DNA of 38,103 nt from Flavobacteriales bacterium (GCA_025210805.1 JAOAQX010000010.1:1-38103), one strand, 5' to 3'; numbered from the stretch's first letter, positions 6,642 to 31,400 are shown. Numbers and translations: made by a program. Notes: generated from the letters alone by a model not told the origin.

Positions 6642-9410
6642 CTAAAACCAATCTCCTTCAAAATCGTTTTTCTGCTTCTTTTTAGTCATGGTGTTGAATT
6701 TGTAAGTTAAGCTTAGCATAAAGTAGGGTTGAAGCACTAAATTACTAGAACTTTCGGTGTAGTTACTCCTAATTCTTCTTTGGACCGAATTATTTTGCCT
6801 GAGTAAATCATAAGCTTTAAGCGAAAGTGTTGCTTTATCTTCCAAAACATCATAAGCAATTTTTGAATTCCAAAAAAGAACCTGATTGTCATAAATATCT
6901 TCTAAAGCCGGTGTATACATAAAATCTAAAGTATTTTCCCACCGAAGTCTCTTGGTAATATCCCAATTGAGATCCAGTTCTACATTATGGACAATGACTT
7001 CATTATCTTCAAAATGCTCTAGGGCAAATTCAGATTTTCTCCTTTCCCAGTCATAACTAAGAGAAATATCCCAAAGATCTTCGTGTTCATACGTAGCTCC
7101 AATTTGAGGGTTGAGGCTGTTGATTTTATTTTCACCAAGAATTCCATTATTATAAAAAAGATCATTGTAAAATTGGAAACTAATACGAGTAAGTGCCTTG
7201 AAGCTTTTCACAGAATCTACTTCAAATGTTCTTGACAAACTAGCTGAAGTATAAGTGTTATATTTTCCATTGGCATTGGTGTATGATGAAGTTCTGATAA
7301 AATTATCGCTGATGCTTACAGAGTCGATAATAGCATCATTTCTATAGTTGAAATTCCCATAGAAATAATAAGACCATCCTTTGTTTAAAGATCTTTTGTT
7401 GAAACCAAAATACCCATTCCATCTTTTGGTAACTTCTAGGTTTGGATTCCCCACGCGGATATTACTTGGGTTTGACAGGTCTCTAAATGTTTGAAGTTGC
7501 TGGAGAGAAGGGTTTTGGTTTGAAAACCTTACACTGGCATATAAGCTTTTTTGTTTTTTCATCCTTTTCCAGATATAGGCATTAAAACTTGGAAGCTGAA
7601 AGCTTCTACTAATCGTTTGTTCACTCCTTAAAAAATCTCTGTTTTCGAGTGTTCTCCAAGAGTATCCTACAAAGAAATTTGCATATAATTTATCGTCTTG
7701 TAACTCTAGACCTGTAAAAGGTGCGTGTAAAACAGAATTGTATTCAAAATTAGAACTCAGGTCTTTATTGAAATCATTAAAAGAATTTCCAACTTTATCA
7801 AAAGTGCTTTTTTCATTTTTGAGTTGGGAATAGTTCAAACGATAACCCGTTTTCCAATAAAGTTTCTTTTTCTTCAAGGCGTGACGATAGGCTATTTCGG
7901 GTCTGAAAACGATTTTATCAGATGCTGTAGTCACCTTTTGATCTCTATTGGTTTCCGTGTTATTGAGAGGCTCAGAAAGTTTAAGTGTCTGAAAATTGTC
8001 TGAACGGGTATTCACAAATTGATCCTGATATCTCAAACGAATAGAACTTCCTTTATTCCCAATATTATGGCTGATATCTAAATCATTTTGGAAATCAAGG
8101 TTATTAAAATCACTTTCATTAACAGATTTGGACTTATTTGCTATTTCACCATCACTATTTCTGGTTTCCGATTCAGAGATATTTTTAGATTCACTTTCAG
8201 AAAGATTCAACCGAGGTTCATAACTAATATACCAAGTGGTGTCCTTTTTCCAAGCCATTTCTAGGCCGAAATTATGATTATTTATGGTTCTGTCTCCAGA
8301 GTTTTTTCCAGAATTTTTGAATTTAGATTGATCCGGTAAAGAGTACTCCCTCTGGTATTCCTTGGCGGTTTCTGTGGTGATTCCTGAATGGAAATATTTT
8401 ACGCCAATATCTGTGTTTGCATTAATTTTATCATCATAATTGAGTCCAGCATTTCTAGAAGTGGTAATTCCATTGGCACCCCCAAACTGCATTCCATCTA
8501 TAGAAAAACTACCATTGCTAGAGCGGGTCATGCTTCTTCCGCCCCCATACATTTTTCTTATTTCTCCAAACCCAAAACCGGCTGTATTGATATTGTTTTG
8601 TCCAAAAAGAACACTAATTCTTCTATCGTTATTGAAATAATTAAATAAACCGGCACCTTCATATCTTTCGTCTGTACCTATTCCCGCAGAAACTCTTCCA
8701 AAAATCCCTTTGTTTTTATCCTTTTTGATGGTCAGATTGATCGATTTTTCTTCGGTATTTCCTTTTTCACCAGTAAGCGCCTCAGCTTTGGTTTTAGAAT
8801 CGGTAATTTGAATCTTTTCTATCATTTCTTTAGTAAGATTCTTCGTGGCAATCGTGGGGTCGTTTCCAAAAAAAGACTTTCCATTTACCGTGATATTTTT
8901 TACCTCTTTACCATTTACCATGATTTTTCCGTCTTTGGTAATTTCTACTCCAGGGAGTTTTTTTAGTAAATCTTCCACAGTAGCATTTTCTTTAGCCTTA
9001 AAAGAATCTGCATTAAATTCCAAAGTATCTTTTTTGATAATCAATGGAACGGCTTTTTCTGTTAGTTCCACTTCCCCAAGCATTCCACCTTCTGACAGAG
9101 AAATAGATCCTAGTGAGGTTTTCTTATCTTTAAGTCTTAATTTTCTTTCAATAGGCTGATATCCCACAAAAGAAATATGCAAAAGCACCTCAGAAAGATA
9201 GGTTCTTGTTTCTATTTTAAAATTCCCTTCTGTGTCTGTAATAGAATAGGCAATGAGGTTACTATCCGATGGATTTTCTATATAAACGGTGGCACTTTCA
9301 AGGCCTTCATTTGTGTTTTTATCCAGAATTTTCCCTGTAATTTCAACAGATCTACTTTGCCCAAATACCCATAGTGGTATTAAGAAAATAAGAAGGATTA
9401 ATTTTCGCAT
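6642..9410 (-). CDS. TonB-dependent-receptor-like outer-membrane beta-barrel protein
   Basis: 922 aa. A signal peptide (RKLILLIFLIPLWVFGQ) is followed by a carboxypeptidase-regulatory-like beta-sandwich (about residues 23-110: VEITGKILDKNTNEGLESATVYI, SFVGYQPIERKL). Then comes a plug domain (about 115-230: NATVEDLLKKLPGVEI, KEVKNITVNGKSFFGNDPTIATKNLTKEMIEKIQI), then a roughly 690-residue barrel with many alternating strands. This is the barrel-3 receptor family common in Bacteroidota; many members lack a clear TonB box and have no known ligand. No SusD partner or substrate enzyme is adjacent, so a substrate cannot be inferred. A good promoter lies just upstream. Confidence 0.88.
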   Translation of the reverse strand: MRKLILLIFLIPLWVFGQSRSVEITGKILDKNTNEGLESATVYIENPSDSNLIAYSITDTEGNFKIETRTYLSEVLLHISFVGYQPIERKLRLKDKKTSLGSISLSEGGMLGEVELTEKAVPLIIKKDTLEFNADSFKAKENATVEDLLKKLPGVEITKDGKIMVNGKEVKNITVNGKSFFGNDPTIATKNLTKEMIEKIQITDSKTKAEALTGEKGNTEEKSINLTIKKDKNKGIFGRVSAGIGTDERYEGAGLFNYFNNDRRISVLFGQNNINTAGFGFGEIRKMYGGGRSMTRSSNGSFSIDGMQFGGANGITTSRNAGLNYDDKINANTDIGVKYFHSGITTETAKEYQREYSLPDQSKFKNSGKNSGDRTINNHNFGLEMAWKKDTTWYISYEPRLNLSESESKNISESETRNSDGEIANKSKSVNESDFNNLDFQNDLDISHNIGNKGSSIRLRYQDQFVNTRSDNFQTLKLSEPLNNTETNRDQKVTTASDKIVFRPEIAYRHALKKKKLYWKTGYRLNYSQLKNEKSTFDKVGNSFNDFNKDLSSNFEYNSVLHAPFTGLELQDDKLYANFFVGYSWRTLENRDFLRSEQTISRSFQLPSFNAYIWKRMKKQKSLYASVRFSNQNPSLQQLQTFRDLSNPSNIRVGNPNLEVTKRWNGYFGFNKRSLNKGWSYYFYGNFNYRNDAIIDSVSISDNFIRTSSYTNANGKYNTYTSASLSRTFEVDSVKSFKALTRISFQFYNDLFYNNGILGENKINSLNPQIGATYEHEDLWDISLSYDWERRKSEFALEHFEDNEVIVHNVELDLNWDITKRLRWENTLDFMYTPALEDIYDNQVLFWNSKIAYDVLEDKATLSLKAYDLLRQNNSVQRRIRSNYTESSSNLVLQPYFMLSLTYKFNTMTKKKQKNDFEGDWF

Positions 9411-9439
9411 TTTTTAAATTATAAGGTTAAGTAAGGAGT

Positions 9440-9467
9440 CAAATGTATTGACTTCAATAGAGAACAA
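9440..9467 (-). promoter_or_regulatory. Promoter of the beta-barrel receptor gene
   Basis: On the minus strand, TTG (9465-9467), a 17-base spacer and TACATTTG (9440-9447) reproduce the Bacteroidota TTG-N17-23-TAnnTTTG promoter. It lies about 30 bases upstream of the ATG at 9410. Confidence 0.65.
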
Positions 9468-9516
9468 CGAAAAATATTAGTTATAAATTGTAAAACTCAA
9501 TTGAAAAATATTAATT

Positions 9517-9524
9517 TAACTTTG
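9517..9524 (+). promoter_or_regulatory. -7 box of pth
   Basis: TAACTTTG matches TAnnTTTG, 20 bases upstream of the pth ATG; divergent from the receptor promoter. Confidence 0.55.
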
Positions 9525-9544
9525 CTCGGCAGAGAAAGAACATC

Positions 9545-10114
9545 ATGAAAAAATTTGTAATAGTTGGACTAGGAAATATAGGTTCAGAATACGAAAACAC
9601 TAGACATAATATCGGTTTTAAAGTCGTGGAAGCTTTGGCAAAAAAATACCAAGGCAAATGGGAAACCAGTAAAAACTCTTACCGATCAGAAATCAAAATA
9701 AAAGGACGAACGGCTGTATTGGTAAAACCCACTACCTATATGAATTTGAGTGGTAAAGCCGTAAAACATCACCTCACAGCCGAAAAAGTACCTCAAGAGC
9801 AATTGATGGTAATTACCGATGATCTTTCACTAGATTTTGGAGCCATCAGAATAAGAGGAAAAGGATCTGCAGGAGGTCATAATGGACACAAGCACATTAT
9901 AGAAACCCTACGTTCTGAAGCTTACCCTCGTTTGCGTTTTGGAATATCAGCAGATTATTCAAAGGGCAGACAAGTGGATTATGTACTTGGAGAATGGAGT
10001 TATGAAGAAGAATTGGAGCTAGAAAACCTGATAGAACACTGCATAAAAGCTATGGAAAGCTTTGTTTTTAGAGGACTTGGAGACTGTATGAATAATTACA
10101 ATAAGAAGGCTTGA
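9545..10114 (+). CDS. pth: Peptidyl-tRNA hydrolase
   Basis: 189 aa, the usual bacterial size. It hydrolyses the ester bond of peptidyl-tRNAs released prematurely from ribosomes. Motifs seen: N-terminal GLGNIGSEYENTRHNIGF with the catalytic His21, KPTTYMNLSGKAV around residue 62, the TDDLSL segment with the conserved Asp near residue 93, and GSAGGHNGHKHI around 108, all in family order. It has its own promoter and is the last ordinary chromosomal gene before the accessory array. Confidence 0.96.
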   Translation: MKKFVIVGLGNIGSEYENTRHNIGFKVVEALAKKYQGKWETSKNSYRSEIKIKGRTAVLVKPTTYMNLSGKAVKHHLTAEKVPQEQLMVITDDLSLDFGAIRIRGKGSAGGHNGHKHIIETLRSEAYPRLRFGISADYSKGRQVDYVLGEWSYEEELELENLIEHCIKAMESFVFRGLGDCMNNYNKKA

Positions 10115-10346
10115 TTTTTAGTGTGTTCACGTTTTTTCAAGTGTTGAGGAATTAAAAATTGGTGGATGCTGAGTGAGTTCACCAATTAGAAATTGGCTGT
10201 AGCGGGGATTTCAGAAGAAAACTCAAAAGACTCCTAAAAAAGAAATAGAAAAGGCAGGAGGTTTTAATGAAATAATAATCTATAGGGTAACCATAAGATA
10301 GTCGATGTTTCAATCTGTCTAGATATCTCCATGTTAAACTAATATT
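10115..10346 (+). repeat. Intergenic repeat R1 of the cassette-like array
   Basis: 232 bases without a gene. It contains AATTAAAAATTGG, GGATGCTGAGTG, a CCAATT/AATTGG inverted repeat and a closing TAGCGGGGATT, all recognisable in the other intergenic repeats downstream (closest to the 13585-13710 copy). It marks the left edge of the accessory array, immediately after the pth stop codon. Confidence 0.6.
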
Positions 10347-10901
10347 ATGAAAATTCACTTATACCTAATTGTGCTTATAATGATGCTAATATCATGTGGT
10401 AATCTAGGTTCAAAAAACTTGAAAACATATATTTTGAATCCAAATGATAGATCAGATCTTTTTAAAGATAAATGTGAGCTTTTTGGACAATATATTAATA
10501 GTCAAGAATGTGATGTTAATATACAGCTGACAAAGAATAATATCACTATTATTCCGTGCCATTTAGTTGAAATATATCCCTTAGTAGATGAAAGTTTGAG
10601 TATATATGTGGATGAGGATGGAAATATTTTATTATATGGACAAAAAGAAGAAGATGAAAATGTTAAGAATTATGTATCTAAGTATTTTAAAAAACTAAAT
10701 GACTCTAACAAGAAAAATGCAAACTTTATTAGCATAGATTTTTACAACAAAGTTAATTGTGAGTCATTGAACACATACTTTGAAATATTAGATCAGTTAA
10801 TACTAGAAATAAAGAATTCCAGCCATAACAATATCTTAAAGCTTAGATTTATTGATTACAAATATCATAACGATTCTCCCTCAGTTGCCACAAATGAATA
10901 A
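10347..10901 (+). CDS. Small lipoprotein of unknown function
   Basis: 184 aa. An N-terminal lipoprotein signal ends in a lipobox LISC with Cys17, so the mature protein should be membrane-anchored. The rest is acidic and Lys/Asn-rich with no recognised domain; cysteines occur at CELF, QECDV, PCH and NCES. The C-terminus SPSVATNE and the stop codon are encoded by the start of the next intergenic repeat, a feature shared with the secreted protein ending at 13444. As a short AT-rich secreted cassette it resembles immunity-type or accessory genes, but this is inference only. Confidence 0.6.
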   Translation: MKIHLYLIVLIMMLISCGNLGSKNLKTYILNPNDRSDLFKDKCELFGQYINSQECDVNIQLTKNNITIIPCHLVEIYPLVDESLSIYVDEDGNILLYGQKEEDENVKNYVSKYFKKLNDSNKKNANFISIDFYNKVNCESLNTYFEILDQLILEIKNSSHNNILKLRFIDYKYHNDSPSVATNE

Positions 10902-11100
10902 CACCCCGTAAATCGCTTCTGTCTAGCCAGTATGTTAATAGTATTACAAGACTGAAATAAATAACTACAACAGCAACAAATCCAATCAAAATTATGATGT
11001 TGGATGATTTTTTGATATTTCATGTAAATTTGGTTGGATGATCAGTCCACACCTTGTCTCTAGTATCGGGAAATTAATAAAATTCGCGGTGCGGGGGATA
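10874..11100 (+). repeat. Intergenic repeat R2
   Basis: The left part (10874-10920) has the shared block CAG..GCCA..AATGAATAACACC..GTAAATCGCT that provides the last codons of the previous gene. The right part (11011-11100) has TGTAAATTTGGTTGGATGATCAG, CCTTGTC, CGGGAAATTA and a closing GCGGGGGATA. Bases 10969-11046 are identical to 13543-13620. No gene is seen between 10902 and 11196. Confidence 0.8.
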
Positions 11101-11196
11101 TTGCTGAAAAGTCTAAAATGAAAAATACTTAAACAGTATAACCAGAATTTAAAATTAATGACAGTCAATGGAAAAGACTACTAAAAACTAAAAAAA

Positions 11197-11643
11197 ATGA
11201 AGATAATCAAGGGTTATAAGAGTATGTTTTTTCTACTCAGTCTATTACTTTTTACAGCTTGTCAAACTAAAAAAAGTGTATTTTTTGCGTTTGAAGATGG
11301 TTTCGATGAGCATCAAGTCGAGATTGAGATCAACAAAGTTCCAGTTATATATAATACGAGAATAACAACTGATGAATCGCTTGGTTTGACATCGTTAACT
11401 TTTTCATTAAAAAAAATTGGAAGGAATAAGTACTTTGTCGGCTTCCTTCAAAAAAAATATTATCGTTTTAATGAAGAAATTGACTGGAATGGAAAGGACA
11501 CTCTTGAGGTAAGTGTTATAATCTCTGGAACAACATATAAGTTTTATCCTGATTTAGATAAAGGTTGCTATTTATCATTCAACAATAGGGAAAAAGTTGG
11601 ATTACAATTAGATCAATCGTTTGAAGCTATCGAATATGATTAA
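11197..11643 (+). CDS. Small lipoprotein of unknown function
   Basis: 148 aa. Hydrophobic segment MFFLLSLLLFTAC with a lipobox TAC (Cys near residue 22) indicates a lipoprotein; the basic stretch MKIIKGYKS precedes it. The mature part looks like an all-beta domain (VEIEINKVPVIYNTRI, LTSLTFSLKKIG, TLEVSVIISGTTYKFYPD). No family recognised. It sits between repeats R2 and R3 as a single-gene cassette on the same strand as its neighbours. Confidence 0.6.
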   Translation: MKIIKGYKSMFFLLSLLLFTACQTKKSVFFAFEDGFDEHQVEIEINKVPVIYNTRITTDESLGLTSLTFSLKKIGRNKYFVGFLQKKYYRFNEEIDWNGKDTLEVSVIISGTTYKFYPDLDKGCYLSFNNREKVGLQLDQSFEAIEYD

Positions 11644-11679
11644 TTAAGCATGTTAACCATGCATAGTTAACTATCATTA

Positions 11680-11865
11680 GCCCAGCTACAGCCAATAAAT
11701 ACCACACAGTAAATCGCTATTGCCAATTTTTATTGGTACCAGAATGAATGTCAAAACAGTGACACATTGCTTTTCAATATTTCCTGTAAATTTTGTTTGA
11801 TTATCGATGTGTTTACACCTTGTTCTGATTATCGAGAAACTAAAAATTAGTTGGAGCGGGGGATA
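11680..11865 (+). repeat. Intergenic repeat R3
   Basis: The left block at 11680-11730 (CCCAGCTACAGCCAATAAAT, then CAGTAAATCGCTATTGCCAATTTT with a CCAAT-ATTGG dyad) matches R2 and R5. The right block at 11773-11865 (CCTGTAAATTTTGTTTGATTATC, ACACCTTGTTCTG, closing GGAGCGGGGGATA) matches R2 and R4. Here the preceding gene stops about 40 bases before the repeat, so the repeat does not encode its C-terminus. Confidence 0.8.
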
Positions 11866-11892
11866 CTGTAGAAGAGTATGGTTCTTTTGAGT

Positions 11893-11900
11893 TATCTTTG
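11893..11900 (+). promoter_or_regulatory. -7 box abutting the DUF6934-like gene
   Basis: TATCTTTG ends three bases before the ATG at 11904; if transcription starts at the usual distance the message would be leaderless. Confidence 0.55.
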
Positions 11901-11903
11901 TTT

Positions 11904-12458
11904 ATGGATTTTTTAAACGATCGATACACTTTTGTGTTTGAAGGATTGCAAAACGGAGCTTACCTCTATAGATTTGAAAGTGAAGGCAAATATAATATTA
12001 CAAAGCAGGTTGGATTTTTTGATGTAGGGATACCAAATCTTTATAATCTTGGATTTGGAAATTTAGAGATCAAAAACGGAGAAAAATTTGTTGATGATAA
12101 TTCAGATGTAAATAATAATGATTTTAACAGAGTTTTATCTACTGTTTTTAGTTGTGCAATACATTTTTTGAATAATAATTCAGATGCAAGAATATTATTT
12201 TTTGGAAATACACAACATAAACATACCCTCTACATTAGAAAAATTGCAGCTAATTATTCTGAAATATCAAAGCTGTTTAGCTTGTTTGGAGGGGTTTTAC
12301 ATCATAAAAGAGATCTGGTAGATAGAAGCGTTCAAGATAGAGTTATTCGGGATAAAGATATGGATGGTTTAATTTTTGGAGCAGAGGCAATCAAAGATAT
12401 TGAAAGATTTGAAATTCAAAACTGTAGGAATTATGATTTTATAATAATCTCCTCATAA
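11904..12458 (+). CDS. DUF6934-family protein
   Basis: 184 aa. The arrangement YLYRFESEGKYNITKQVGF, VGIPNLYNLGFGNLE, LSTVFSCAIHFL and ARILFFGNTQHKHTLYIRKIA, followed by ISKLFSLFG, matches my memory of the Bacteroidota-specific DUF6934 family, whose members are usually about 150 aa and of unknown function, often beside a very short second gene. That arrangement is seen here (next gene 27 bases downstream). The start MDFLNDRY at 11904 is preferred over an upstream TTG because the -7 box lies directly before it. The C-terminal 40 residues are poorly defined. A toxin-antitoxin-like role is possible but not shown. Confidence 0.65.
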   Translation: MDFLNDRYTFVFEGLQNGAYLYRFESEGKYNITKQVGFFDVGIPNLYNLGFGNLEIKNGEKFVDDNSDVNNNDFNRVLSTVFSCAIHFLNNNSDARILFFGNTQHKHTLYIRKIAANYSEISKLFSLFGGVLHHKRDLVDRSVQDRVIRDKDMDGLIFGAEAIKDIERFEIQNCRNYDFIIISS

Positions 12459-12471
12459 AGAATTAATTGCT

Positions 12472-12479
12472 TAAATTTG
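12472..12479 (+). promoter_or_regulatory. -7 box of the small partner gene
   Basis: TAAATTTG matches TAnnTTTG, six bases before the ATG at 12486 and just after the upstream stop, suggesting separate, possibly leaderless transcription. Confidence 0.45.
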
Positions 12480-12485
12480 TGTGTT

Positions 12486-12692
12486 ATGTCAGATAAATAT
12501 AAAAAAATAGTAAATAAGCAGCTTGAAGATTCTACTTCTCACTGGGCGGGAAAGCCTCGAATGACCAAGGAAGAGATTAAAGCAGCCTTAGAGTTTGCTG
12601 AACGTAAAGCAAAACCAGTTAAAGCTTTTTTCTCTAATCCTAAAAACGTAGAAGATTTTGAAAGGAAAATGGCTGAACTAACAGAAAAATAA
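12486..12692 (+). CDS. Small highly charged protein, partner of the DUF6934-like gene
   Basis: 68 aa, beginning MSDKYKKIVNK. It is rich in Lys and Glu, predicted helical, with no signal peptide; the segment GKPRMTKEEIKAALEFAERKAK resembles the helical N-terminal parts of short Bacteroidota proteins found after DUF6934 genes. The ATG at 12486 is chosen over an in-frame TTG at 12477 because it follows the -7 box. The stop codon is the first part of a 9-bp hairpin. Function unknown; antitoxin-like size and charge are suggestive only. Confidence 0.6.
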   Translation: MSDKYKKIVNKQLEDSTSHWAGKPRMTKEEIKAALEFAERKAKPVKAFFSNPKNVEDFERKMAELTEK

Positions 12693-12715
12693 ACTGTAGG
12701 ATTGATCTACAGTTT
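12691..12715 (+). terminator. Hairpin after the small partner gene
   Basis: Perfect 9-bp stem AAACTGTAG / CTACAGTTT with a 7-base loop overlapping the stop codon. No T-run follows, so terminator activity is uncertain. Confidence 0.45.
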
Positions 12716-12841
12716 AAAGGTAATGGTGTTGATAATCATTGCTTTTTTCGTTTCTTTATAAAATAATTTCATAGGTTGATAAGAATGAGTTCTTTGAAAA
12801 GGGTGTAACTGCAAGTTATTCCAAATAATACATTGGAGCTT

Positions 12842-12926
12842 ATTCGATAATTCCTGTAAATTTGGTTTGATTATCAATGTTTCCAATGCCTTGTCCTGTG
12901 TATTGGGAAAGTGTAACCCCGCGGAA
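12842..12926 (+). repeat. Intergenic repeat R4 (right block only)
   Basis: TTCCTGTAAATTTGGTTTGA, TTATCAATG, TGCCTTGTCC, ATTGGGAAA and a C-rich end CCCCGCGG match the right-hand block of the other copies. The left block with the shared stop codon is missing here. Confidence 0.7.
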
Positions 12927-12952
12927 GACCAATTATACTTTTTAAGTAACGA

Positions 12953-13444
12953 ATGAGTATGAAAAAAATAATATTATTAATTTTCCTTTTGCAGACTATT
13001 GACACTGTTTCCCAGAATAACTATGATTGTCCAGAAATTAAAATTACAATGGCTTTCGGATATTCAATACAATATGATTGCTTAGGGATACTGCATCTTA
13101 ATGGTTTTGATTCTAATGGAGTGATAAAAGCTAATTATTATCCATCAATTTTAATAGAACGAAGGAAAAGAAAAAGGGTTATTAAGTATTTGAAAAATTT
13201 TGACTTTTTCAGAAATTCTGTATCACAAAAAAATGATAGTATTGACCTTTATAAACCAGCTAACATGGTTCGAGCTAGAGTTTATTCATTTAAAGTAAGT
13301 GGTTTAGAGAATAGTTATAACATTATCGATCGAAATTATATGAAGAAAGATACATTATCTAAAAGATTATCTAAGTTACTTGGATTAGTACGAAGTTGTA
13401 TTCCTTTAGATACAAATTCTTCTCCAGCTACAGCCGATGAATAA
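12953..13444 (+). CDS. Secreted protein of unknown function
   Basis: 163 aa (an alternative ATG at 12959 removes two residues). A signal peptide KKIILLIFLLQTIDTVSQ is followed by a mature part with two cysteines near the start (YDCPEIK, YDCLG), a basic patch ERRKRKRVIKYLKNF, and a C-terminus SPATADE whose last codons and stop lie in repeat R5. The two genes with this repeat-encoded tail are otherwise unrelated in sequence. No family recognised. Confidence 0.6.
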   Translation: MSMKKIILLIFLLQTIDTVSQNNYDCPEIKITMAFGYSIQYDCLGILHLNGFDSNGVIKANYYPSILIERRKRKRVIKYLKNFDFFRNSVSQKNDSIDLYKPANMVRARVYSFKVSGLENSYNIIDRNYMKKDTLSKRLSKLLGLVRSCIPLDTNSSPATADE

Positions 13445-13710
13445 CACCAGTAAACGTTACTCCCAATTTGTGCACGGTAGGCTGGGGTGAATGTTATATT
13501 AGAGAAAAAGACATTAGGAAAATTTCTTAGCAAAATAAGGAAAACAGCAACAAATCCAATCAAAATTATGATGTTGGATGATTTTTTGATATTTCATGTA
13601 AATTTGGTTGGATGATCAGTATTTCTACTCTTGCTTATAATGTCGGATGCTGAGTGTGTCCACGCCTTGTCCCGAGTAGCGGGAAATTAAAAATTGGCGG
13701 GAGCGGGGTA
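13421..13710 (+). repeat. Intergenic repeat R5
   Basis: The left block (13421-13470: TCTCCAGCTACAGCCGATGA, then ATAACACCAGTAAACG) overlaps the end of the secreted-protein gene. A perfect 78-base copy of 10969-11046 follows at 13543-13620. The right block ends GCCTTGTCCCGAGTAGCGGG and AAATTGGCGGGAGCGGGGTA (13710), with a local TCCCG-CGGGA dyad. An extra stretch containing GGATGCTGAGTG, also seen in R1, is inserted. No gene between 13445 and 13786. Confidence 0.8.
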
Positions 13711-13756
13711 TGTAATCATGCTTTTATAGTCTCATATATGATATGATTAAAAACTG

Positions 13757-13764
13757 TATCTTTG
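13757..13764 (+). promoter_or_regulatory. -7 box of the toxin-antitoxin pair
   Basis: TATCTTTG, 22 bases before the antitoxin ATG. Confidence 0.55.
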
Positions 13765-13786
13765 TGATATTAGATACTACAAATTC

Positions 13787-14035
13787 ATGGATTTACAAGC
13801 TCGAAAAATAAAATTAGCACAATACATCCTTAGTCAAACAAAAGAATCTGTTATAGAAAAGTTTAGTGCTATAATGGAAAGCGAATCCAATACTGAAATT
13901 ATTGCCTATACTGTGTCGGGTAAGCCTTTAACGGAGAAAGAATATTACAATAAAATTCTAAAGGCTGAAAAATCTATTGAAGAAGGGAGCTTCACTCATC
14001 ATGATGACTTAAAAAAGTATATTTCAAATTGGTAA
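13787..14035 (+). CDS. Antitoxin-like protein of a ParD/RelB-type pair
   Basis: 82 aa. It begins MDLQARKIKLAQYIL, a form common in Bacteroidota antitoxins paired with ParE/RelE toxins. A helical N-terminus is followed by a segment with YTVSGKPLTEKEYYNKI and a flexible acidic C-terminus that would wrap the toxin. It is promoter-proximal and overlaps the toxin gene by seven bases, the standard order for such modules. It would neutralise the toxin and probably repress the operon. Confidence 0.8.
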   Translation: MDLQARKIKLAQYILSQTKESVIEKFSAIMESESNTEIIAYTVSGKPLTEKEYYNKILKAEKSIEEGSFTHHDDLKKYISNW

Positions 14036-14313
14036 CTGAAATCATTTGGTCTGATGATGCTAAGGTCGAATTAGAGGTGATTTACGCTGATTTACTTAAT
14101 TATACAAAATCAAAACAGAATGCCTTGAGCGTAATTAATGACATTGTATCCCATGTGGAAGGAATTAAATATCCAGAACAATATCAGATTGACGAAATAA
14201 TTGGAGATTCTTATCGTAGGCTAATCGTTAGGAATTTCAGAATAACTTATCAAATAGTAAGCAATCATACGATTCGAGTTTTGGGAATCACCTCTACCTA
14301 TATGGATCATTAA
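14029..14313 (+). CDS. ParE/RelE-superfamily toxin
   Basis: 94 aa. Typical fold signatures: VTEIIWSDDAKVELEVIYADL at the N-terminus, VEGIKYPEQYQIDEIIG in the middle, and a C-terminal strand set YRRLIVRNFRITYQIVSN then IRVLGI. ParE members poison gyrase and RelE members cut mRNA; the sequence alone does not separate these. The start is unusual: the frame has no ATG nearby, and the TTG at 14029 overlapping the antitoxin stop (TTGGTAA) is the best start, implying translational coupling and low toxin output. Confidence 0.82.
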   Translation: MVTEIIWSDDAKVELEVIYADLLNYTKSKQNALSVINDIVSHVEGIKYPEQYQIDEIIGDSYRRLIVRNFRITYQIVSNHTIRVLGITSTYMDH

Positions 14314-17697: not shown

Positions 17698-17705
17698 CAA
17701 AGGTA
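17698..17705 (-). promoter_or_regulatory. -7 box of the PfkB kinase gene
   Basis: Minus strand TACCTTTG matches TAnnTTTG; it sets the likely start codon downstream at 17659. Confidence 0.5.
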
Positions 17706-17727
17706 TTGTTTTATTCAAATATTCCTA

Positions 17728-17735
17728 TATATTTG
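17728..17735 (+). promoter_or_regulatory. -7 box of the tRNA-Asn array
   Basis: TATATTTG matches TAnnTTTG, 35 bases upstream of the first tRNA, divergent from the kinase promoter. Confidence 0.5.
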
Positions 17736-17770
17736 CATCGCTTTTGTTGAGAAACAGCAAAAGAAAACAC

Positions 17771-17844
17771 TCCTCCTTAGCTCAGTTGGTTAGAGCATCT
17801 GACTGTTAATCAGAGGGTCCTAGGTTCGAGTCCTAGAGGGGGAG
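17771..17844 (+). tRNA. tRNA-Asn (GTT), first copy
   Basis: A complete 74-base cloverleaf: acceptor TCCTCCT with AGGGGGA, D arm GCTC-GAGC, anticodon arm TCTGA-CTGTTAA-TCAGA with anticodon GTT, T arm CTAGG-TTCGAGT-CCTAG and discriminator G. CCA is not encoded. It is followed by its own terminator, so it can function independently of the copies downstream. Confidence 0.97.
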
Positions 17845-17853
17845 CAAAATAAA

Positions 17854-17882
17854 AGTTTAACATGAAATGTTAGACTTTTTTT
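17854..17882 (+). terminator. Terminator after the first tRNA-Asn
   Basis: Stem AGTTTAACAT / ATGTTAGACT (one G-T pair) with a 3-base loop and a seven-base T-run. A second small dyad TTGAGT / ACTCAA follows at 17881-17900. Confidence 0.75.
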
Positions 17883-17914
17883 GAGTGAAATTTTTACTCA
17901 AAATAGGAGTAAAT

Positions 17915-17990
17915 CCCTCCTTAGCTCAGTTGGTTAGAGCATTCCGATTATTCATCGGAAGCGTCCTAAGCTTCAGTCCTAGAGAGTGAG
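17915..17990 (+). pseudogene. Degenerate tRNA-Asn-like copy A
   Basis: The 5' half is the same as the intact gene through GAGCA, including the whole D arm. The anticodon arm is replaced by TTCCGA-TTATTCA-TCGGAA, two bases longer in total. The T arm reads CTAAG-CTTCAGT-CCTAG, losing the TTCGA loop, and the acceptor has three mismatches (CCCTCCT against AGAGTGA). It is unlikely to be a normal decoding tRNA. The near-identical second degenerate copy 16 bases further on argues for duplication after divergence, or retained structure. Confidence 0.8.
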
Positions 17991-18006
17991 AACACAAAAT
18001 AAACAT

Positions 18007-18082
18007 TCCTCCTTAGCTCAGTTGGTTAGAGCATTCCGATTATTCATCGGAAGAGTCCTAAGCTTCAGTCCTAGAGAATGAG
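18007..18082 (+). pseudogene. Degenerate tRNA-Asn-like copy B
   Basis: Almost identical to copy A: same D arm, same 19-base rebuilt anticodon arm (perfect 6-bp stem), same altered T arm. Its acceptor is somewhat better (TCCTCCT against AGAATGA, two mismatches). The short spacer before it (AACACAAAATAAACAT) and that after it (AATGAAAAATAAATAT) are similar, so the array grew by tandem duplication. It could be a remnant of earlier integration events at this tRNA, or a structured tRNA-like RNA. Confidence 0.8.
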
Positions 18083-18098
18083 AATGAAAAATAAATAT

Positions 18099-18172
18099 TC
18101 CTCCTTAGCTCAGTTGGTTAGAGCATCTGACTGTTAATCAGAGGGTCCTAGGTTCGAGTCCTAGAGGGGGAG
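18099..18172 (+). tRNA. tRNA-Asn (GTT), second intact copy, element junction
   Basis: Identical in sequence to the first tRNA-Asn over all 74 bases. The sequence diverges right after it and enters recombinase coding sequence on the opposite strand: the stop codon of that gene (18138-18140) lies in the anticodon stem. This tRNA is therefore the probable chromosomal attachment side of the mobile element. Confidence 0.96.
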
Positions 18173-19691
18173 CTTTTTTAGAAAAACCGTCATTTTTGGC
18201 GGTTTTTTCAATTTTCAAATATTTTAACTCGTTGTTTTCTAATATTATACACTCTAATAAATAACTGATGTTTTTGGTTCGATATTGATTTTTTTCAAAA
18301 GTCAATTTTTCAGGAAATATCGAACCAACAAGTAATTTTTTTAGTTTGATATCTGCTTGAGCGTAGAGTTTTCTGATATTTTTGATAAAAGTAATTCCAG
18401 ATTTTAAATGATTGGCAAAATTATCATCTAATGAGTTTAACTGAGATATTGATACTTTGATTTCTTGAATTCGTTTAGAGTTTCTAAGTTTAGCTTTATT
18501 ATATGTTTTCACATCAATAAGATCATCTAAGAATTTGTCCTCCATTGAAGATTGTCTTTCAAGGAGTTTATTGAGTTCCCTTTTTAGACTTTGTTTTTGA
18601 ATTTTAATATCATTCGTTTTGGAACCATGTATTTTTCTAATGATCTTTCTATAGAGTGAGGCGATATCTTCCTTAATCTGAATTTCTTCAAGCATGAGTT
18701 CAAATAAGATATTTACATCATCGGCTTTAAATCGTACTCTACAAGGTGGATTACAATGGTAATAATAGTAAGAGTTACCAGTTCTTCCTTTGGAGCTCGA
18801 TCCTGTAAGATTTCTATTACAAGAAGGACAAATTAGATGCCCTCGAAGAGGAAGAGCCTTGTCTATTTCTTTTGGTTCTTTTGTCGTAATACTAATTTTC
18901 TCACTAAAGTTGTTTTGCACCTTATCAAAGATATCTTGATCAATAATTGCAGGATGAAGTCCTTCGACTAATTGCTCATTATAGTCTTTATTTCTGTGAA
19001 TATAAATTTTTCCTAAATAAGTCGGATTTTTAAGCATGGAGATCGTTCCATTTTTGGAGATTTTGATATTGTTTTCAATTAGCATTAGCCTGATTTCTTG
19101 AATAGAATACATGCCTTGGCTATACATTTCAAAAGCACGTTGAATATAAGGTGCTTTATGGTGATCAATAGCCAAAGTGGATTTACCATTTTCATCACGT
19201 TGATTCTTATAACCCTTAGGGGCAAGTCCTGTAAAGCACCCCTCTAATTTCGCCTTGTGTAAAGCACTTTTTGTTCTTTCGCTGTTCTTATCATTTTCGA
19301 CTTCTGGGATAACAAGATACATTGCTAAAATGACCTTTGAATCAGACTGAGATAAATCTAAAGGCTGCTCTGTTGCACTAACTTCAATATTATAAGAGTT
19401 GAAAGTTCGAATCATTTTATAAGCTTCTTCAATATTTCTTGAAAACCGATCCCATTTAGTGAACAGAATTTTGTGAATTCTTTTTTTATTATTTTTTGAG
19501 AAATTCAAAAGCTGAGAAAAAGCTGGTCTTTTAAAATTTTTTGCTGAGAAATCTTCTTCAAAATGAGCCAGAATAGTGAGGTCATTATTAAGACAATAAC
19601 GTTCTAGGGTGCTTTTTTGATTTCGTAAAGAATAGCCTTTTTGTGCTTGTTCATCGGTGCTTACTCTTGTGTAGATAATAACGTTTTCCAT
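18138..19691 (-). CDS. Large serine recombinase (integrase) ending inside tRNA-Asn
   Basis: 517 aa. The N-terminal resolvase domain has YTRVSTDEQ with nucleophile Ser11 and DRFSRN with catalytic arginines near 82-85. A recombinase domain (about 150-260) follows with GYKNQRDENGK and MLKNPTYLGKIY, then a zinc ribbon with Cys288, Cys291, Cys313 and Cys317, and a coiled-coil C-terminus (about 325-420). Such enzymes integrate and excise mobile elements at short att sites. The last 12 codons including the stop are the reverse complement of the tRNA 3' half (end PPLGLEPRTL), which puts the crossover at or near this junction; the C-terminus may differ in the excised form. Confidence 0.9.
   Translation of the reverse strand: MENVIIYTRVSTDEQAQKGYSLRNQKSTLERYCLNNDLTILAHFEEDFSAKNFKRPAFSQLLNFSKNNKKRIHKILFTKWDRFSRNIEEAYKMIRTFNSYNIEVSATEQPLDLSQSDSKVILAMYLVIPEVENDKNSERTKSALHKAKLEGCFTGLAPKGYKNQRDENGKSTLAIDHHKAPYIQRAFEMYSQGMYSIQEIRLMLIENNIKISKNGTISMLKNPTYLGKIYIHRNKDYNEQLVEGLHPAIIDQDIFDKVQNNFSEKISITTKEPKEIDKALPLRGHLICPSCNRNLTGSSSKGRTGNSYYYYHCNPPCRVRFKADDVNILFELMLEEIQIKEDIASLYRKIIRKIHGSKTNDIKIQKQSLKRELNKLLERQSSMEDKFLDDLIDVKTYNKAKLRNSKRIQEIKVSISQLNSLDDNFANHLKSGITFIKNIRKLYAQADIKLKKLLVGSIFPEKLTFEKNQYRTKNISYLLECIILENNELKYLKIEKTAKNDGFSKKAPPLGLEPRTL
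18173..18209 (+). terminator. Terminator of the tRNA array, lying inside the recombinase gene
   Basis: A T-run directly after the tRNA, then a dyad GAAAAACCG...CGGTTTTTTC followed by more T residues. On the + strand this can end tRNA transcription; on the minus strand it is coding sequence of the integrase C-terminus. If the element did supply this terminator, integration would keep the tRNA gene functional. Confidence 0.5.
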
Positions 19692-19923
19692 AATCCAAGT
19701 GGGTTTTATGATTTCAACAAAAAGATCTCATATTCAATTAATGCAATTTTCTCTAGAAATTGTATGAGTAACCTATGTTGATCATCTGTTTGTAAAATGT
19801 TTTTGTATTTCATATAGTAGGTTTATCCCCCCTTTGGGAAAAAACTCGAAACAATTCAAAGTATCTCTATTTCAGCTTGTTTTCAAAGAGGGTGTATTGG
19901 TTTTTAGCTCATTTTAAGAAATA

Positions 19924-20208
19924 TTAGCGCTCTAAGTGATTTTCCTTTTCTTCTCTGATTTTTTGAAGTTTTTCCAACTTATCCAGTCGCTGATGAATTT
20001 GTTTCATATGATGTCGACTATTCAACATTTCAAAGTCTTTTTCTCTAATGGCTAATTTCTGCCAGGAGTAACGTTTGCCGTCTATGTCTTCAATCCCAAG
20101 GGGAATCCCCTTTTTATGATAGATGTTAAGACCAAGGTTTTCTAATTTGTCATAAAATTCTCCCATAGAATGAGAGCTTGCTAAAAGTTTGTGTTTGATA
20201 AATTTCAT
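19924..20208 (-). CDS. Stand-alone relaxase C-terminal-like protein
   Basis: 94 aa, ATGA overlap with the relaxase stop. Its plan matches the relaxase C-terminal third: SSHSMGEFYDKLENLGLNIY aligns with SKSLSEFKELLHNHDLIHY, then GIPLGIEDIDGKRYSWQKLAI with GIPTGVISCSGKKYRFKTLDI, and the endings LEKLQKIREEKENHLER with LEKLKKIRENKQQHLNR. It therefore looks like a duplicated C-terminal domain without the nuclease. It may serve as a relaxosome or coupling-protein adaptor. No independent family recognised. The 232 bases between it and the recombinase gene have no gene. Confidence 0.75.
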   Translation of the reverse strand: MKFIKHKLLASSHSMGEFYDKLENLGLNIYHKKGIPLGIEDIDGKRYSWQKLAIREKDFEMLNSRHHMKQIHQRLDKLEKLQKIREEKENHLER

Positions 20209-21068
20209 CGGGTACGATTTAAGTGTTGTTGTTTGTTTTCTCTTATTTTCTTGAGTTTTTCTAAAAGCTGATTTTCTTTTTCTAAATCTTTGGATTGGTT
20301 TAAATCCAAATAATCTTCGAGTTGAATGTCTAAGGTTTTAAATCGGTATTTCTTCCCTGAACAAGAGATGACTCCCGTGGGTATTCCATCACTTCTCCTT
20401 TCGTAATGGATCAAATCATGATTATGAAGTAGCTCTTTAAATTCTGATAGGGATTTGGATTGTTTTAATGCTGTTTCTATATTCTGTTTTACGGTTTGTG
20501 TTACCGATGTGCCACCATACTTGATTAAGTTTCCTTCTCGCTCCTTGATATAAGGTCTACCTTTTCCATGTTCAATATGAGAATGTTCAAGACCTAATTC
20601 TTTGGTTACAAAATTTTCCATCTCCAGTTTCAAGTCTGCTAATTCAGATTTTCTCAAGGAACTGGATTTGTTTTGTCGATATCGAGTGGCAGATTCTAAA
20701 ATATGAATATGCGGGCTATCTGTATTAAAATGTGCAATTGCGTAACCAAGAACATCTCCTCTTAAATCAAAGTACTTTTCTGTAATGCTGGTCATCACTT
20801 CTGAAGTACAGTATGATTTGTCTTTTTCACTCATGGAAATAATGGTATGGAAACAGTAAATCCGATTTTCCGTAATCTTTCGGTAAGCCTCATTTTCAAT
20901 AAAAGCATCAATGATTTTTTCTTTTTCATCAGGGTTTGCTCGAATGTTATGAAGAATAGGAGTAAACTCCTGCTGTTGTGTTTTGGTTTTATGCTCGTTT
21001 TGTATGTAATTGATGGTATTCTCAAAGGCATACAATCGAGATCGAGAAAGCATTTTAAGTAGAGGCAT
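20205..21068 (-). CDS. HUH relaxase / mobilization nuclease
   Basis: 287 aa. It nicks the transfer origin and leads the strand during mobilization. The metal-binding HUH motif is in AHFNTDSPHIHIL (His113, Asp117, His120, His122), matching the MobV/MobP-like HxDxxxPHxH pattern; an Arg/Tyr-rich N-terminus RSRLYAFENTINYI may carry the catalytic tyrosine. A C-terminal domain (about 195-287) has a SEFKELL helix, a beta region GIPTGVISCSGKKYRFK and a basic coiled end. It overlaps the upstream accessory gene by 14 bases and the downstream duplicate by 4. The shortness, and no primase or helicase domain, fit a mobilizable rather than a self-transmissible element. Confidence 0.85.
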   Translation of the reverse strand: MPLLKMLSRSRLYAFENTINYIQNEHKTKTQQQEFTPILHNIRANPDEKEKIIDAFIENEAYRKITENRIYCFHTIISMSEKDKSYCTSEVMTSITEKYFDLRGDVLGYAIAHFNTDSPHIHILESATRYRQNKSSSLRKSELADLKLEMENFVTKELGLEHSHIEHGKGRPYIKEREGNLIKYGGTSVTQTVKQNIETALKQSKSLSEFKELLHNHDLIHYERRSDGIPTGVISCSGKKYRFKTLDIQLEDYLDLNQSKDLEKENQLLEKLKKIRENKQQHLNRTR

Positions 21069-21495
21069 GATCCGTATCGTTTAAATAGTTTAACAATCGC
21101 TCTTCTATAAAAAGCAACGTACTTAAAACTTCATTTTGAGAAGATTGATTTGTTTTCATCAGTTTATTGATGAGTAATCCTAAATCAGCACTCAGATTCG
21201 TAAGTGCAGATCTGTTTGGAATAGAAGCTTTTGCATGTACTTTTTCAAGTAGTAAACTTTTAGCCAATAAACTTGGTGATATATTATTATGTTTACAGAG
21301 CTTCTCTAAGGTTTTGTAAGGCTTATCTTCCAAATAAAATCGCAATTCGTGAAGGCTTTTTCGTTTTCGTTTCGCCCACTGACGCTGATATTCTCTACGA
21401 TAGAGTTTCTTGTATTTTTTACGCTTTTCAGGATTATCTAAAGCTTCATGTTTAATAAGAAAAGCTAGTAGGAATTGTGATTTAATTTTGACCAT
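21055..21495 (-). CDS. Mobilization accessory protein (MobC-like)
   Basis: 146 aa, strongly basic N-terminus (PEKRKKYKKLYRREYQRQWAKRKRKS) followed by LHELRFYLEDKPYKTLEKLCKHNNISPSLLAKSLL, a ribbon-helix-helix-like pattern, and a helical C-terminus with IEERLLNYLND. Position directly before the relaxase, with 14-base overlaps on both sides, fits a DNA-binding relaxosome protein. The family assignment is by size, charge and context rather than by a firm motif. Confidence 0.65.
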   Translation of the reverse strand: MVKIKSQFLLAFLIKHEALDNPEKRKKYKKLYRREYQRQWAKRKRKSLHELRFYLEDKPYKTLEKLCKHNNISPSLLAKSLLLEKVHAKASIPNRSALTNLSADLGLLINKLMKTNQSSQNEVLSTLLFIEERLLNYLNDTDHAST

Positions 21496-23044
21496 CTGAA
21501 GATTGTTTTTGAGTGAAACATTCAGCTAAATAGTCCTCTATACTGAGATGTTTAATCTTTGAGGATTTATCGTATATTCCATTTTTAACTTTTGTCTTTC
21601 TTTTAAATGGAATCTTACTTTTTCTGACCATGGATGGGATTTTATAAAATGGAGTAAAACTCAAAAGCAAAGGTCGTTTCCCTGTAATGGTTACAATGCC
21701 TTTATCTTGTGACGAAAGTGCCATTAATTCCGTTTTTGTTTTTAGTGGTCGGGTAATCTTTTGCTCCGACTCTTTAGGTGTATAAGTATAAGTTCCCAAT
21801 ACTTTTTCTAAATGCGTGGCTTCTTTTAAATCGATACTTAGATACACATGTGTATTTAAGTTTGAAATAATGGTGTCCGATTTTTCTTTGGAAAATGTAG
21901 TAGTAAACTGGCTATGCGGATTTTGTGCAAACAGACATAGGCTACCATTATATTTACGAATATTACTTGTGATAATATCCAAATTATCGATCTTCAATAC
22001 AGGTGTTTCATCTAAAATAAAATAGGTGTCTCTATCTTTCTCCGTTGGTAATTCCTGAAAAAAAGCATCAAAAAATTGAGTAAAAAACATGGTAGAAATT
22101 GGACTATAATATTCCATCTTTGTGGTTGAAGAATGAACAAACACCGCTGTTTTTGTTTGTCGGATTTTGGTTAAATCCCCTAGGGTGTCATGTGAAGTGA
22201 TTTTTGCAAGATTTTCATCCAATCCATAAATGGACAGTGCATTTGATAAGGTCGATAAAACGCCACTCAAGGTGTTCTCTGACATGGATACTATTGATGA
22301 ATACGTTGTAAAAAGTTCAGGTTTATGTTCTGACAATTCAACGACCAATTTATCAAAGGATTCTCTTTCTGTTTCGGATTGTAATTTTTCCACCAGATGA
22401 TAGAGATTATAAAGTGTATCATAAACTTTTGGTAATCCCTTTTGAAGTTCAATAAGAAAAACGAGTATGGACACAGCTTTGGAATTCCAAAAGTCCATTT
22501 TGCCTTTTACAGTATTGGATATTAGGGTATAGGCAAAAGCATTAAACTGAGCTTTGGTTTGTAATCGAAAAAGTGGATTAAACCTTGACGAGTTATTGGC
22601 ATTGGCAAAATCAAGAATTAAAATGGAGTACCCTAAGGATTGTAAATACCCTGCAGTATATCCGAAAATTTCTTTGGATGGATCGTGTATACAAAGCATG
22701 GATTCTTTATCTATATTAAATAGTATGGGTAAACAAAGTTTTACAGATTTCCCAGAACCCGTACTTCCTGACACTAAAACCCCTTTTCTATCCTGATCTT
22801 TTGTTAGATTTAAATACCCATTGATAGTTAATCCTCTATTCTTTCTGCGAAACACAGAAGAGATTTCCCCAAAGCCATCTTCAATTTCATGCTTTTGTTT
22901 TTTCATGGAATCCAAAAGATTAAGACTCAACGATGCCATTTCTTCGTTTGTATCTTCAAAAAAGACATCCGCTTTGTTAAAAAACTGTTTGGACTTTTGT
23001 TTAAGCCAAACAAGTTTTCTTAGTGTTGTTATGGTTAATTTCAT
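21482..23044 (-). CDS. VirD4/TraG-like type IV coupling ATPase
   Basis: 520 aa. Walker A GSTGSGKS at residues 93-100 and Walker B YFILDE at 341-346, with the coupling-protein hallmarks FNPLFRL, WNSKAVSILVFLI and NPHSQF. It would bring the relaxase-DNA complex to a secretion channel. There is no strong N-terminal membrane segment, unlike classical TraG; the membrane proteins encoded immediately upstream may replace it. It overlaps its upstream 49-aa gene by ATGA and the accessory gene downstream by 14 bases. Confidence 0.87.
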   Translation of the reverse strand: MKLTITTLRKLVWLKQKSKQFFNKADVFFEDTNEEMASLSLNLLDSMKKQKHEIEDGFGEISSVFRRKNRGLTINGYLNLTKDQDRKGVLVSGSTGSGKSVKLCLPILFNIDKESMLCIHDPSKEIFGYTAGYLQSLGYSILILDFANANNSSRFNPLFRLQTKAQFNAFAYTLISNTVKGKMDFWNSKAVSILVFLIELQKGLPKVYDTLYNLYHLVEKLQSETERESFDKLVVELSEHKPELFTTYSSIVSMSENTLSGVLSTLSNALSIYGLDENLAKITSHDTLGDLTKIRQTKTAVFVHSSTTKMEYYSPISTMFFTQFFDAFFQELPTEKDRDTYFILDETPVLKIDNLDIITSNIRKYNGSLCLFAQNPHSQFTTTFSKEKSDTIISNLNTHVYLSIDLKEATHLEKVLGTYTYTPKESEQKITRPLKTKTELMALSSQDKGIVTITGKRPLLLSFTPFYKIPSMVRKSKIPFKRKTKVKNGIYDKSSKIKHLSIEDYLAECFTQKQSSDGQN

Positions 23045-23190
23045 TTTTTATGTTTTTGATAGGTTTTATGGAGTTCTCCAATGAAGCTTAGTACTTCATG
23101 GAGAACTTTTAAAAGAACAGAAAACAGGAGCATAAGGCAGTTGAACAAAAAGAGTAGAAACTGCCAGCATGCACTAAAAAGGGTTTTCAT
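23041..23190 (-). CDS. 49-aa single-pass membrane peptide in the mobilization operon
   Basis: A 49-codon frame from ATG at 23190 to TGA at 23041, encoding MKTLFSACWQFLLFLFNCLM, then LLFSVLLKVLHEVLSFIGEL and a basic tail HKTYQKHKK. It overlaps the lipoprotein gene by ATGA at its start and the coupling-protein gene by ATGA at its end, exactly filling what would otherwise be a 142-base gap in a gapless operon. One hydrophobic segment of about 25 residues with a positive C-terminal tail suggests an inner-membrane peptide, perhaps anchoring the soluble coupling ATPase. No homolog is known to me. Confidence 0.8.
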   Translation of the reverse strand: MKTLFSACWQFLLFLFNCLMLLFSVLLKVLHEVLSFIGELHKTYQKHKK

Positions 23191-23885
23191 AAAGCTGAGG
23201 TATTTTGAGATGTTGTTTCAAAAAATTGTCCCATTTGTATCTTGTAGCCTTTAGGTTCAAGCACTGCTTTATAGATTTCTAAAATGGACTGTATGTAGAG
23301 ACCTTGCTCATAATCTTTTGGACTGAAATAGACATAGACCTGAGTATTCCCTTTTTGGATGGGAATTTTTGAATAGTCCAATATCAATTGGTCTTTATGC
23401 TTGATAATCTGCTGAGCCGTTTGAAAACGATTAAGTTTTGTGAAAGAATTTTCAATCATATCGGTAAATAAATGCACCTCAGATACTCCGTTATTTAAAT
23501 GCTGAGCGAGGATAGGAAAAATCACTGATTTCGGGCTGGATTTTTGAGTCTTATTCTGTTGGTTAATAATATGCTCAGCTTGCTGATAAAAATGCTTGAG
23601 TTGTTTACGATTTTCTAAATCGTTACTGAGCATCCCCGACTTCAAATCCAATGAAATTTGCTGTTTATTATGAAAAGGCAAATCGTCAATACGTTCAAAC
23701 GTCACTTGTGACTTCCCTGTTTGATTCCATTTTTTGAGAGCTTTAAACCAGCCTATACTTGGATAAATCGGCATGACATCAGAGTGGTCTGTTAATATTA
23801 CCATTTTGTCTAATTTGTTTTGTTTCTTCTTTGTACAAGCCGCTGCAAAAAGAAGAATGCTTAGGGTAATGATCATTCTATACAT
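23187..23885 (-). CDS. Lipoprotein of the mobilization operon, possible vWA-like fold
   Basis: 232 aa. The signal ends in a lipobox AAAC (about Cys17, LFAAACTKKK). Two strand-plus-acid segments, KMVILTDHSDVMP near residue 30 and VSEVHLFTDMIENS near 135, resemble the first and fourth strands of von Willebrand A or metallochelatase-like domains, but the canonical DxSxS is not there (DHSD). The assignment to that fold is tentative. It starts eight bases inside the upstream membrane-protein gene. A periplasm-facing lipoprotein in a mobilization operon is unusual and might contact a helper channel or mediate exclusion. Confidence 0.6.
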   Translation of the reverse strand: MYRMIITLSILLFAAACTKKKQNKLDKMVILTDHSDVMPIYPSIGWFKALKKWNQTGKSQVTFERIDDLPFHNKQQISLDLKSGMLSNDLENRKQLKHFYQQAEHIINQQNKTQKSSPKSVIFPILAQHLNNGVSEVHLFTDMIENSFTKLNRFQTAQQIIKHKDQLILDYSKIPIQKGNTQVYVYFSPKDYEQGLYIQSILEIYKAVLEPKGYKIQMGQFFETTSQNTSAL

Positions 23886-24939: not shown

Positions 24940-25286
24940 AATTTATGATTACACAAATTTTGTTATTCTATTCAGTTCGTGAATATGTTTGCTACCAGTG
25001 GGTATTTAGTAATCTAAAAGGTCAAAAAATCAACTCAAGAGGTTTTATATTCATTTTTTTATGTAATTTAGTGGCACGTTCTTTAACAAAAAGAAGACAC
25101 TCGTTTTGAGTGTCTGGTAGAATAGGGTGTTGATCAACAGGAGTATGTCTCCATAAAGATAGATGAATCTGATATTCAGCTGAGTATCATCTGCTTTAAT
25201 TTAGGAATCCACAGAGATACATATATATAACCAGAGACATCAATCTTAATGCCTAGCCTATTTCTAACTTTCTAATACTGAAGGAA
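24940..25286. other. Intergenic control region between mobilization operon and LytTR gene
   Basis: 347 bases between two divergent transcripts. It holds an 8-bp perfect dyad AGACACTC-GTTTT-GAGTGTCT (25095-25115) and a palindrome TTGATCAA nearby (25130-25137). No good TAnnTTTG box stands out for the operon. It could contain the operon promoter, a LytTR target, or the transfer origin; no nick site can be recognised by eye. Confidence 0.4.
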
Positions 25287-26104: not shown

Positions 26105-26116
26105 ACCTAAATTTGA

Positions 26117-31393: not shown

Positions 31394-31400
31394 AATTGCT

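Follow-up and report, generated by a model that had tools for sequence, protein, structure and literature searches.

In the type VI secretion system clusters of Vibrio cholerae new effector-immunity units displace old effectors, and the old immunity genes are kept downstream (PMC5361080). No specific integration site was found for these arrays and rare illegitimate recombination was proposed as their source (PMC5361080). The recombinase-associated acquired interbacterial defence (rAID) arrays of Bacteroidales hold orphan immunity genes among short co-oriented genes with conserved intergenic motifs (PMC12247911). By what means bacteria exchange toxin C-terminal/immunity cassettes and accumulate displaced immunity genes is an open question. 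Here we describe an array of small genes at positions 10,115 to 13,710 of a 38,103-nucleotide stretch from a Flavobacteriales bacterium (GCA_025210805.1 JAOAQX010000010.1:1-38103; this whole stretch is referred to as the window and is contig C10). The intergenic modules that separate the genes are, to judge from their sequence, almost certainly decayed, internally deleted and non-autonomous derivatives of an element with a repetitive extragenic palindrome (REP)-associated tyrosine transposase (RAYT) of the Y1/HUH type. In its working the array appears to resemble those of V. cholerae, in which old immunity genes are displaced (PMC5361080), but here the junctions are marked by the right end of a transposable element.

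RAYT genes of Bacteroidetes, which form HUH subclass 2.6 (TnpA_REP/RAYT), are flanked by atypical secondary structures and have copies elsewhere in the genome (PMC6006769). The transposase behind the modules is a member of a known family. Neither the placing of RAYT-derived modules at junctions within toxin/immunity arrays nor any other link between RAYT elements and polymorphic toxin arrays turned up in the open literature, subscription papers lying outside this search.

Identity and distribution of the intergenic modules

The modules are about 180-290 bp long and are bounded by terminal inverted repeats, CCCCGCTACCGCCAAT...ATTGGCGGTAGCGGGG. Aligned full copies begin with CCC[CA]GCTACCGCCAAT and end with ATTGGCGGTAGCGGGG. 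The right boundary is sharp, with an information content of 1.5 bits at the last base and about 0.0-0.5 outside, and the left edge is similar. Beyond these ends the flanks are unrelated. Both inverted ends are kept in three window copies and in about a dozen copies elsewhere in the genome. In this the modules are like REPINs and bacterial miniature inverted-repeat transposable elements, which are likewise short, non-autonomous, RAYT-related and carry inverted ends. Yet the modules are longer, retain the 3' end of the transposase and are clustered and co-oriented in arrays instead of being only dispersed.

The origin of the modules was revealed by a full-length copy on contig C28 of the same genome, where an open reading frame of 185 aa lies between the module's own left and right ends. 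Its product, MSRNYKYHNPEG...NHVH...YVHNNP...HVNLV followed by a stop, matched the RAYT family NF047646 of NCBIfam with 82.3 bits (cut-off 80) and PF01797 with 34.7 bits (cut-off 23). It thus combines both family matches with the NHVH and YVHNNP motifs, while the window modules are devoid of a transposase. The gene is situated between inverted REP-like palindromes that have copies elsewhere in the genome. Motifs and phylum agree with HUH subclass 2.6: a Y1 transposase with NHVH and YxHNNP, flanking structures and further genomic copies are common to both, whereas here internally deleted copies are concentrated in toxin/immunity arrays (PMC6006769). The last codons of the transposase, ...ATTCATGTAAATTTGGTTTGA, are the block 'TGTAAATTTGGTT' that a first, sequence-only reading of the window had noted as conserved between the small genes. 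Because the transposase ends in this block, the modules are read as internally deleted RAYT elements and not as attC sites. The repeat, a decayed transposable element that is also found solitary in ordinary places, is not the recombination site of a cassette system. The sequence-only reading had noticed neither the inverted repeats at the module's termini nor the copy with a transposase gene, nor the similar arrays in other parts of the genome.

The reading had proposed a genome-wide search for the module, and this showed that the module is not confined to the window. The assembly of 3.12 Mb in 34 contigs contained 29 blastn matches, the window's own counted, and a profile search (nhmmer) raised the number to about 40; the copy number thus rests on blastn of the genome and on nhmmer of the fetched stretches only. 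Most copies are gathered in four co-oriented arrays, namely C10 in the window, C28 at 13.7-29 kb, C28 at 181-185 kb and C32 at 113-121 kb. Scattered copies were located on C3, C23 and C25. A search in related genomes, also proposed, gave a divided answer: as DNA the module yielded weak short matches in only 2 of 59 other genomes, while relatives of the transposase were present in 34 of the 296 genomes from the order, a count that includes this genome, and also occurred in other classes of the phylum. Most of the relatives' transposases that were examined are flanked by inverted repeats with a similar outer form, GCTNGCG...CGCNAGC. Thus the module is specific to this genome in sequence, judged by the few weak DNA matches, though not in kind. 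A plasmid origin was rejected for want of a match.

Toxin stumps and putative immunity genes at element right ends

The sister arrays in this genome show what kind of genes the modules accompany. At its start the C28 array has a fragment of an Rhs core with an M91 effector domain, and an immunity-like lipoprotein gene comes next. Two more Rhs-core fragments were located, one within this array and one upstream of the C32 array. Open stretches resembling toxin tails follow many right ends, e.g. GTTFYVRSGTIYKPTTPLKK before a stop codon. Mostly these are too short to be significant individually; one on C32 extends over 178 codons. In C28 and C32, as in two related genomes discussed below (G356 and G003), genes whose toxins are lost or truncated lie near a toxin locus, and position and homology point to an immunity function of these genes. 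We therefore consider the C28 and C32 arrays very probably to be arrays of orphan immunity genes.

The window array shares several features with them. In the 339 kb that were fetched, the 3' block GCAAACTATCATGAGCCC was counted 14 times, against 0.2 copies expected under a uniform distribution; it is confined to the C10, C28 and C32 arrays and always points in gene direction. A DUF6934 gene with a partner of about 70 aa is common to C10, C32 and C28b, and a RelE/ParE-type pair to C10 and C28. The window array, too, is probably of orphan-immunity nature, and by analogy its own lipoprotein genes are putative immunity genes. Overall, the genes between the modules look like mainly orphan immunity genes from polymorphic (Rhs-type) toxin loci, often with a toxin stump ahead. 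A common 3' block links small lipoprotein genes of the C28 and C32 arrays to the lipoprotein gene that follows the Rhs toxin: the latter encodes TNYHASD at its end, a number of orphan genes encode NYHxPN there, and GCAAACTATCATGAGCCC is a related block. A second repeat specific to the arrays, GCAAACTATCATGAGCCCAATTGAC, is found in C28 and C32 where genes end; it encodes the NYHxPN tails, which are common to otherwise unrelated proteins.

The same layout of element right end, truncated toxin, immunity gene and next element recurs in other genera. Genome G260 has three tandem RAYT elements that are 95-96% identical, while the DNA between them is unrelated. Behind each right end there is a toxin C-terminal fragment with a small gene; one fragment is an EndoU domain (PF14436, E 9e-9), one a deaminase-like domain (YwqJ) by a weak match, and the third had no match. 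Around the RAYT copies of G185 we found CdiA_C, toxin-deaminase, YwqJ-deaminase and SUKH-3 domains, and at a RAYT locus of G137 a colicin/pyocin DNase toxin together with its immunity gene. The loci of G260 and G367, which are two species, share both outer flanks and differ in the interior except for the elements and REP-like spacers. The labels 'immunity-type' and 'cassette-like' given by the sequence-only reading are thus borne out: toxin C-terminal tails and immunity genes stand between repeats of the same type in the sister arrays and in other genera, and at one syntenic locus two species differ completely in gene content. Ahead of a deaminase-like toxin tail in G367 (L149:10860-11200) stands a right end that belongs to another REP family than the neighbouring elements; such junctions are therefore marked by more than one type of RAYT.

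The most precise junction was observed in G356, where base 9711 of L152 is the last of the element and toxin homology begins at base 9712. From there on the sequence has 87% homology to the last codons of the G003 toxin (VIWHRFFNPVKKR and stop) and to the downstream gene. G003 carries a longer toxin and the same downstream gene at the syntenic locus, and the downstream gene is intact in G356. The upstream part of the toxin is absent from G356, with none of it left of the left end of the element.

Possible routes of array growth

A clean insertion would leave the upstream part of the toxin to the left of the element, which was not seen in G356. Clean insertion of elements into a pre-existing array is therefore insufficient and was rejected. 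Two alternatives would account for G356: the element may have triggered deletions beside itself that stop at its edge, or a piece of DNA bordered on its 3' side by an element may have been inserted into the toxin gene by way of the right end. On either view the process acts at the right end, as would be expected for a Y1 transposase.

Y1 transposases cut single-stranded DNA at folded ends. We propose the following sequence of events for the arrays. The transposase would cut and join single-stranded DNA precisely at the right end of the element, and a rearrangement anchored there would bring the element and new upstream toxin/immunity DNA next to the 3' portion of an older toxin gene. The older toxin would lose its upstream part, while its immunity gene would be retained as still protective. 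Repetition in one direction would give rise to a co-oriented array in the order right end, toxin stump, immunity gene, left end. Afterwards the elements would lose their transposase genes and decay to modules of about 180-290 bp. Growth by repeat-mediated capture, as the sequence-only reading had suggested, is possible. That the window is an orphan-immunity array with junctions formed at RAYT right ends, and thus of right-end-driven origin, we hold to have an even chance. The wider proposal, in which RAYT transposases actively build such arrays in Bacteroidota by right-end-anchored transposition that carries toxin/immunity DNA and swaps toxin C-termini, is more tentative and somewhat doubtful. 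If true, it would add a third route to immunity banks beside the tyrosine recombinase of rAID and plain recombination.

In the strongest competing explanation the arrays arise through ordinary recombination, illegitimate or homologous, in the way suggested for V. cholerae, and the RAYT elements merely insert. They would do so in non-essential spacers and cause local deletions whose limits are set by selection for immunity. Published displacement arrays are without such elements (PMC5361080). Of 44 solitary elements in relatives, 34 already stand behind a gene of the same direction, which suggests a preference for gene 3' ends. On the other hand, this explanation requires a deletion to end exactly at the element every time, and in G356 toxin homology starts with the first base past the right end and is missing left of the left end. 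Nor does it readily explain the orientation of right-side genes. These were co-directional with the module for 25 of 28 array copies and for 2 of 8 non-array copies (Fisher p = 0.001); solitary RAYT elements of relatives showed no such preference (23 of 44; Fisher 0.002 versus the arrays). We rate mere insertion as possible, though short of an even chance.

Several points weigh against right-end-driven growth of orphan-immunity arrays. The orientation counts, made by hand from the table of nhmmer matches, are not fully independent, as genes within one array share their direction. Among the RAYT loci of relatives that were examined and sorted by hand, 44 were solitary and 8 toxin-associated, which speaks for mere insertion. 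In G003 the same locus has a different insertion, whose right end exactly meets the tail of a further small gene that lacks its first part; this gene is an ordinary one, not a toxin. G487 and G502 have the same downstream orphan gene with a short toxin tail at ordinary loci without RAYT, which shows that the element is not needed for orphan formation and is as expected if the elements merely insert. The only genome of the same family that was compared has pth followed by gatC with no array and is too distant to serve as an empty site. Finally, the window array is free of Rhs fragments and its genes had no match to an immunity family in searches that included Pfam, NCBIfam and PADLOC; the PADLOC scan returned zero defence genes.

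In G205 (L105, around 8584-14174) one large gene is present twice, once truncated and once in full, with a RAYT element between the two copies that looks to have moved together with neighbouring DNA.

An integron-like or rAID-like cassette array, in which a tyrosine recombinase uses the intergenic module as its recombination site, is largely refuted and now very improbable. Short co-oriented genes with conserved intergenic sequence are shared with rAID (PMC12247911), a repeat between unrelated small genes of one direction is shared with integron cassette arrays, and one single-stranded copy folds better than its shuffles (z -4). Yet the ends of the module are those of a RAYT element, CCC[AC]GCT... 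and ...AGCGGGG, and not RYYYAAC/GTTRRRY core sites. The sequence-only reading had rightly reported canonical attC sites as unseen and an integron integrase as missing nearby; no match exceeded the TIGR02249 cut-off. Whereas an adjacent tyrosine recombinase defines rAID, the locus has none beside it: genes of this kind (PF00589) come no closer than about 60 kb to the C28 and C32 arrays, and C10 was found to have none. Without an integrase and with the wrong ends, an attC array was rejected. A full-length IntI was not found; the best integron-integrase match, 86 bits to TIGR02249 over 75 positions, is an isolated C-terminal fragment, 77 aa long, of a tyrosine recombinase resembling integron integrases; it lies on another contig with no full gene around it (L046:7548-7781; G000:C34:97532-97756).

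Equally improbable is an RNA element, regulatory or terminator, that only by chance sits behind small genes: the module has hairpins and lies immediately after stop codons, yet a search of Rfam gave nothing over the gathering score, the covariation term was unfavourable (+0.7, with one pair showing several compensatory changes and little support beyond the terminal stem), solitary copies are mostly opposite to the neighbouring genes, and homology to the transposase element accounts for the sequence.

Junctions that coincide exactly with the right end of a known transposase family suggest a definite enzyme and open cassette exchange to testing. A role in interbacterial warfare, if true, would be a new function for RAYTs, which are mostly known for spreading tiny REP repeats, and a RAYT element may be one tool by which such bacteria collect antidotes. 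The modules also provide a sequence tag for locating unannotated immunity genes in Flavobacteriales.

Parts of the window array

The sequence-only reading had seen related repeats in all five gaps. All five are indeed occupied, by three full modules and two right-half remnants, and gap 4 is without the terminal GCGGGG. Four of the five matches are far beyond chance (nhmmer E 5e-48 to 3e-13). Gap 1, immediately behind pth, is the weak exception: its degenerate right-end remnants (10120..10207, +) gave nhmmer partial matches at 10108-10177 and 10184-10212 with E about 3e-3, and the assignment is partly positional, with a right end ATTGGCTGTAGCGGGG at 10192-10207 that has 1 mismatch to the consensus. 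As had been stated, the genes between the repeats are without mutual similarity (all-against-all blastp) and are all on the + strand.

The first gene (10347..10901, +) encodes a small lipoprotein of 184 aa that is immunity-like by position; a Pfam search of the product gave nothing over the cut-off. Its stop codon is inside the left end of the following module, with an overlap of about 24 bases. This full module of gap 2, an internally deleted RAYT element, spans 10880..11096 (+; nhmmer 10877-11107, E 6e-40). Immediately 3' of its right end a short open frame, DIAEKSKMKNT and stop (11098..11133, +), may be a toxin tail, its length being insufficient for significance by itself. It is followed by a second small lipoprotein gene (11197..11643, +; 148 aa), immunity-like by position and without a family, for which a search of the other 395 genomes of the order gave one very weak match. 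Its identification as a known immunity protein was rejected on this single weak match. A degenerate copy of the 3' block GCAAACTATCATGAGCCC (11666..11683, +; 3 of 18 positions mismatched) touches the left end of the full module of gap 3 (11681..11861, +; nhmmer E 5e-48), which has 2 mismatches in the left end and 4 in the right.

The DUF6934 gene (11898..12458, +; 186 aa, PF22028 E 4e-27) and its 71-aa partner (12477..12692, +) come next. Paralogues of both, with the partner behind the DUF6934 gene, are found in the C32 and C28b arrays. In C10, C32 and C28b the partner of about 70 aa is always present and a right-half module comes next; the two genes are possibly a functional unit of their own. 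The right-half remnant of gap 4 (12840..12916, +) matched model positions 109-184 with nhmmer E 3e-13. A gene for a small secreted protein of 163 aa (12953..13444, +) has its stop codon inside the left end of the next module, again with an overlap of about 24 bases. This last module, in gap 5, is full and has its right part duplicated (13423..13708, +; nhmmer E 3e-46, right end with 1 mismatch). The two genes of the RelE/ParE-type toxin-antitoxin pair (13787..14313, +; PF05016 E 5e-7, TIGR02385) are located 3' of it, and a paralogue of the pair stands immediately behind a module in the C28 array.

A mobilisable element adjoins the array in the window at 17700-33813. Named from sequence only, its genes include two for large serine recombinases (18138-19691, -, and 28326-30020, +) and others that are relaxase-like, coupling-protein-like, DNA methylase-like and RadC-like.

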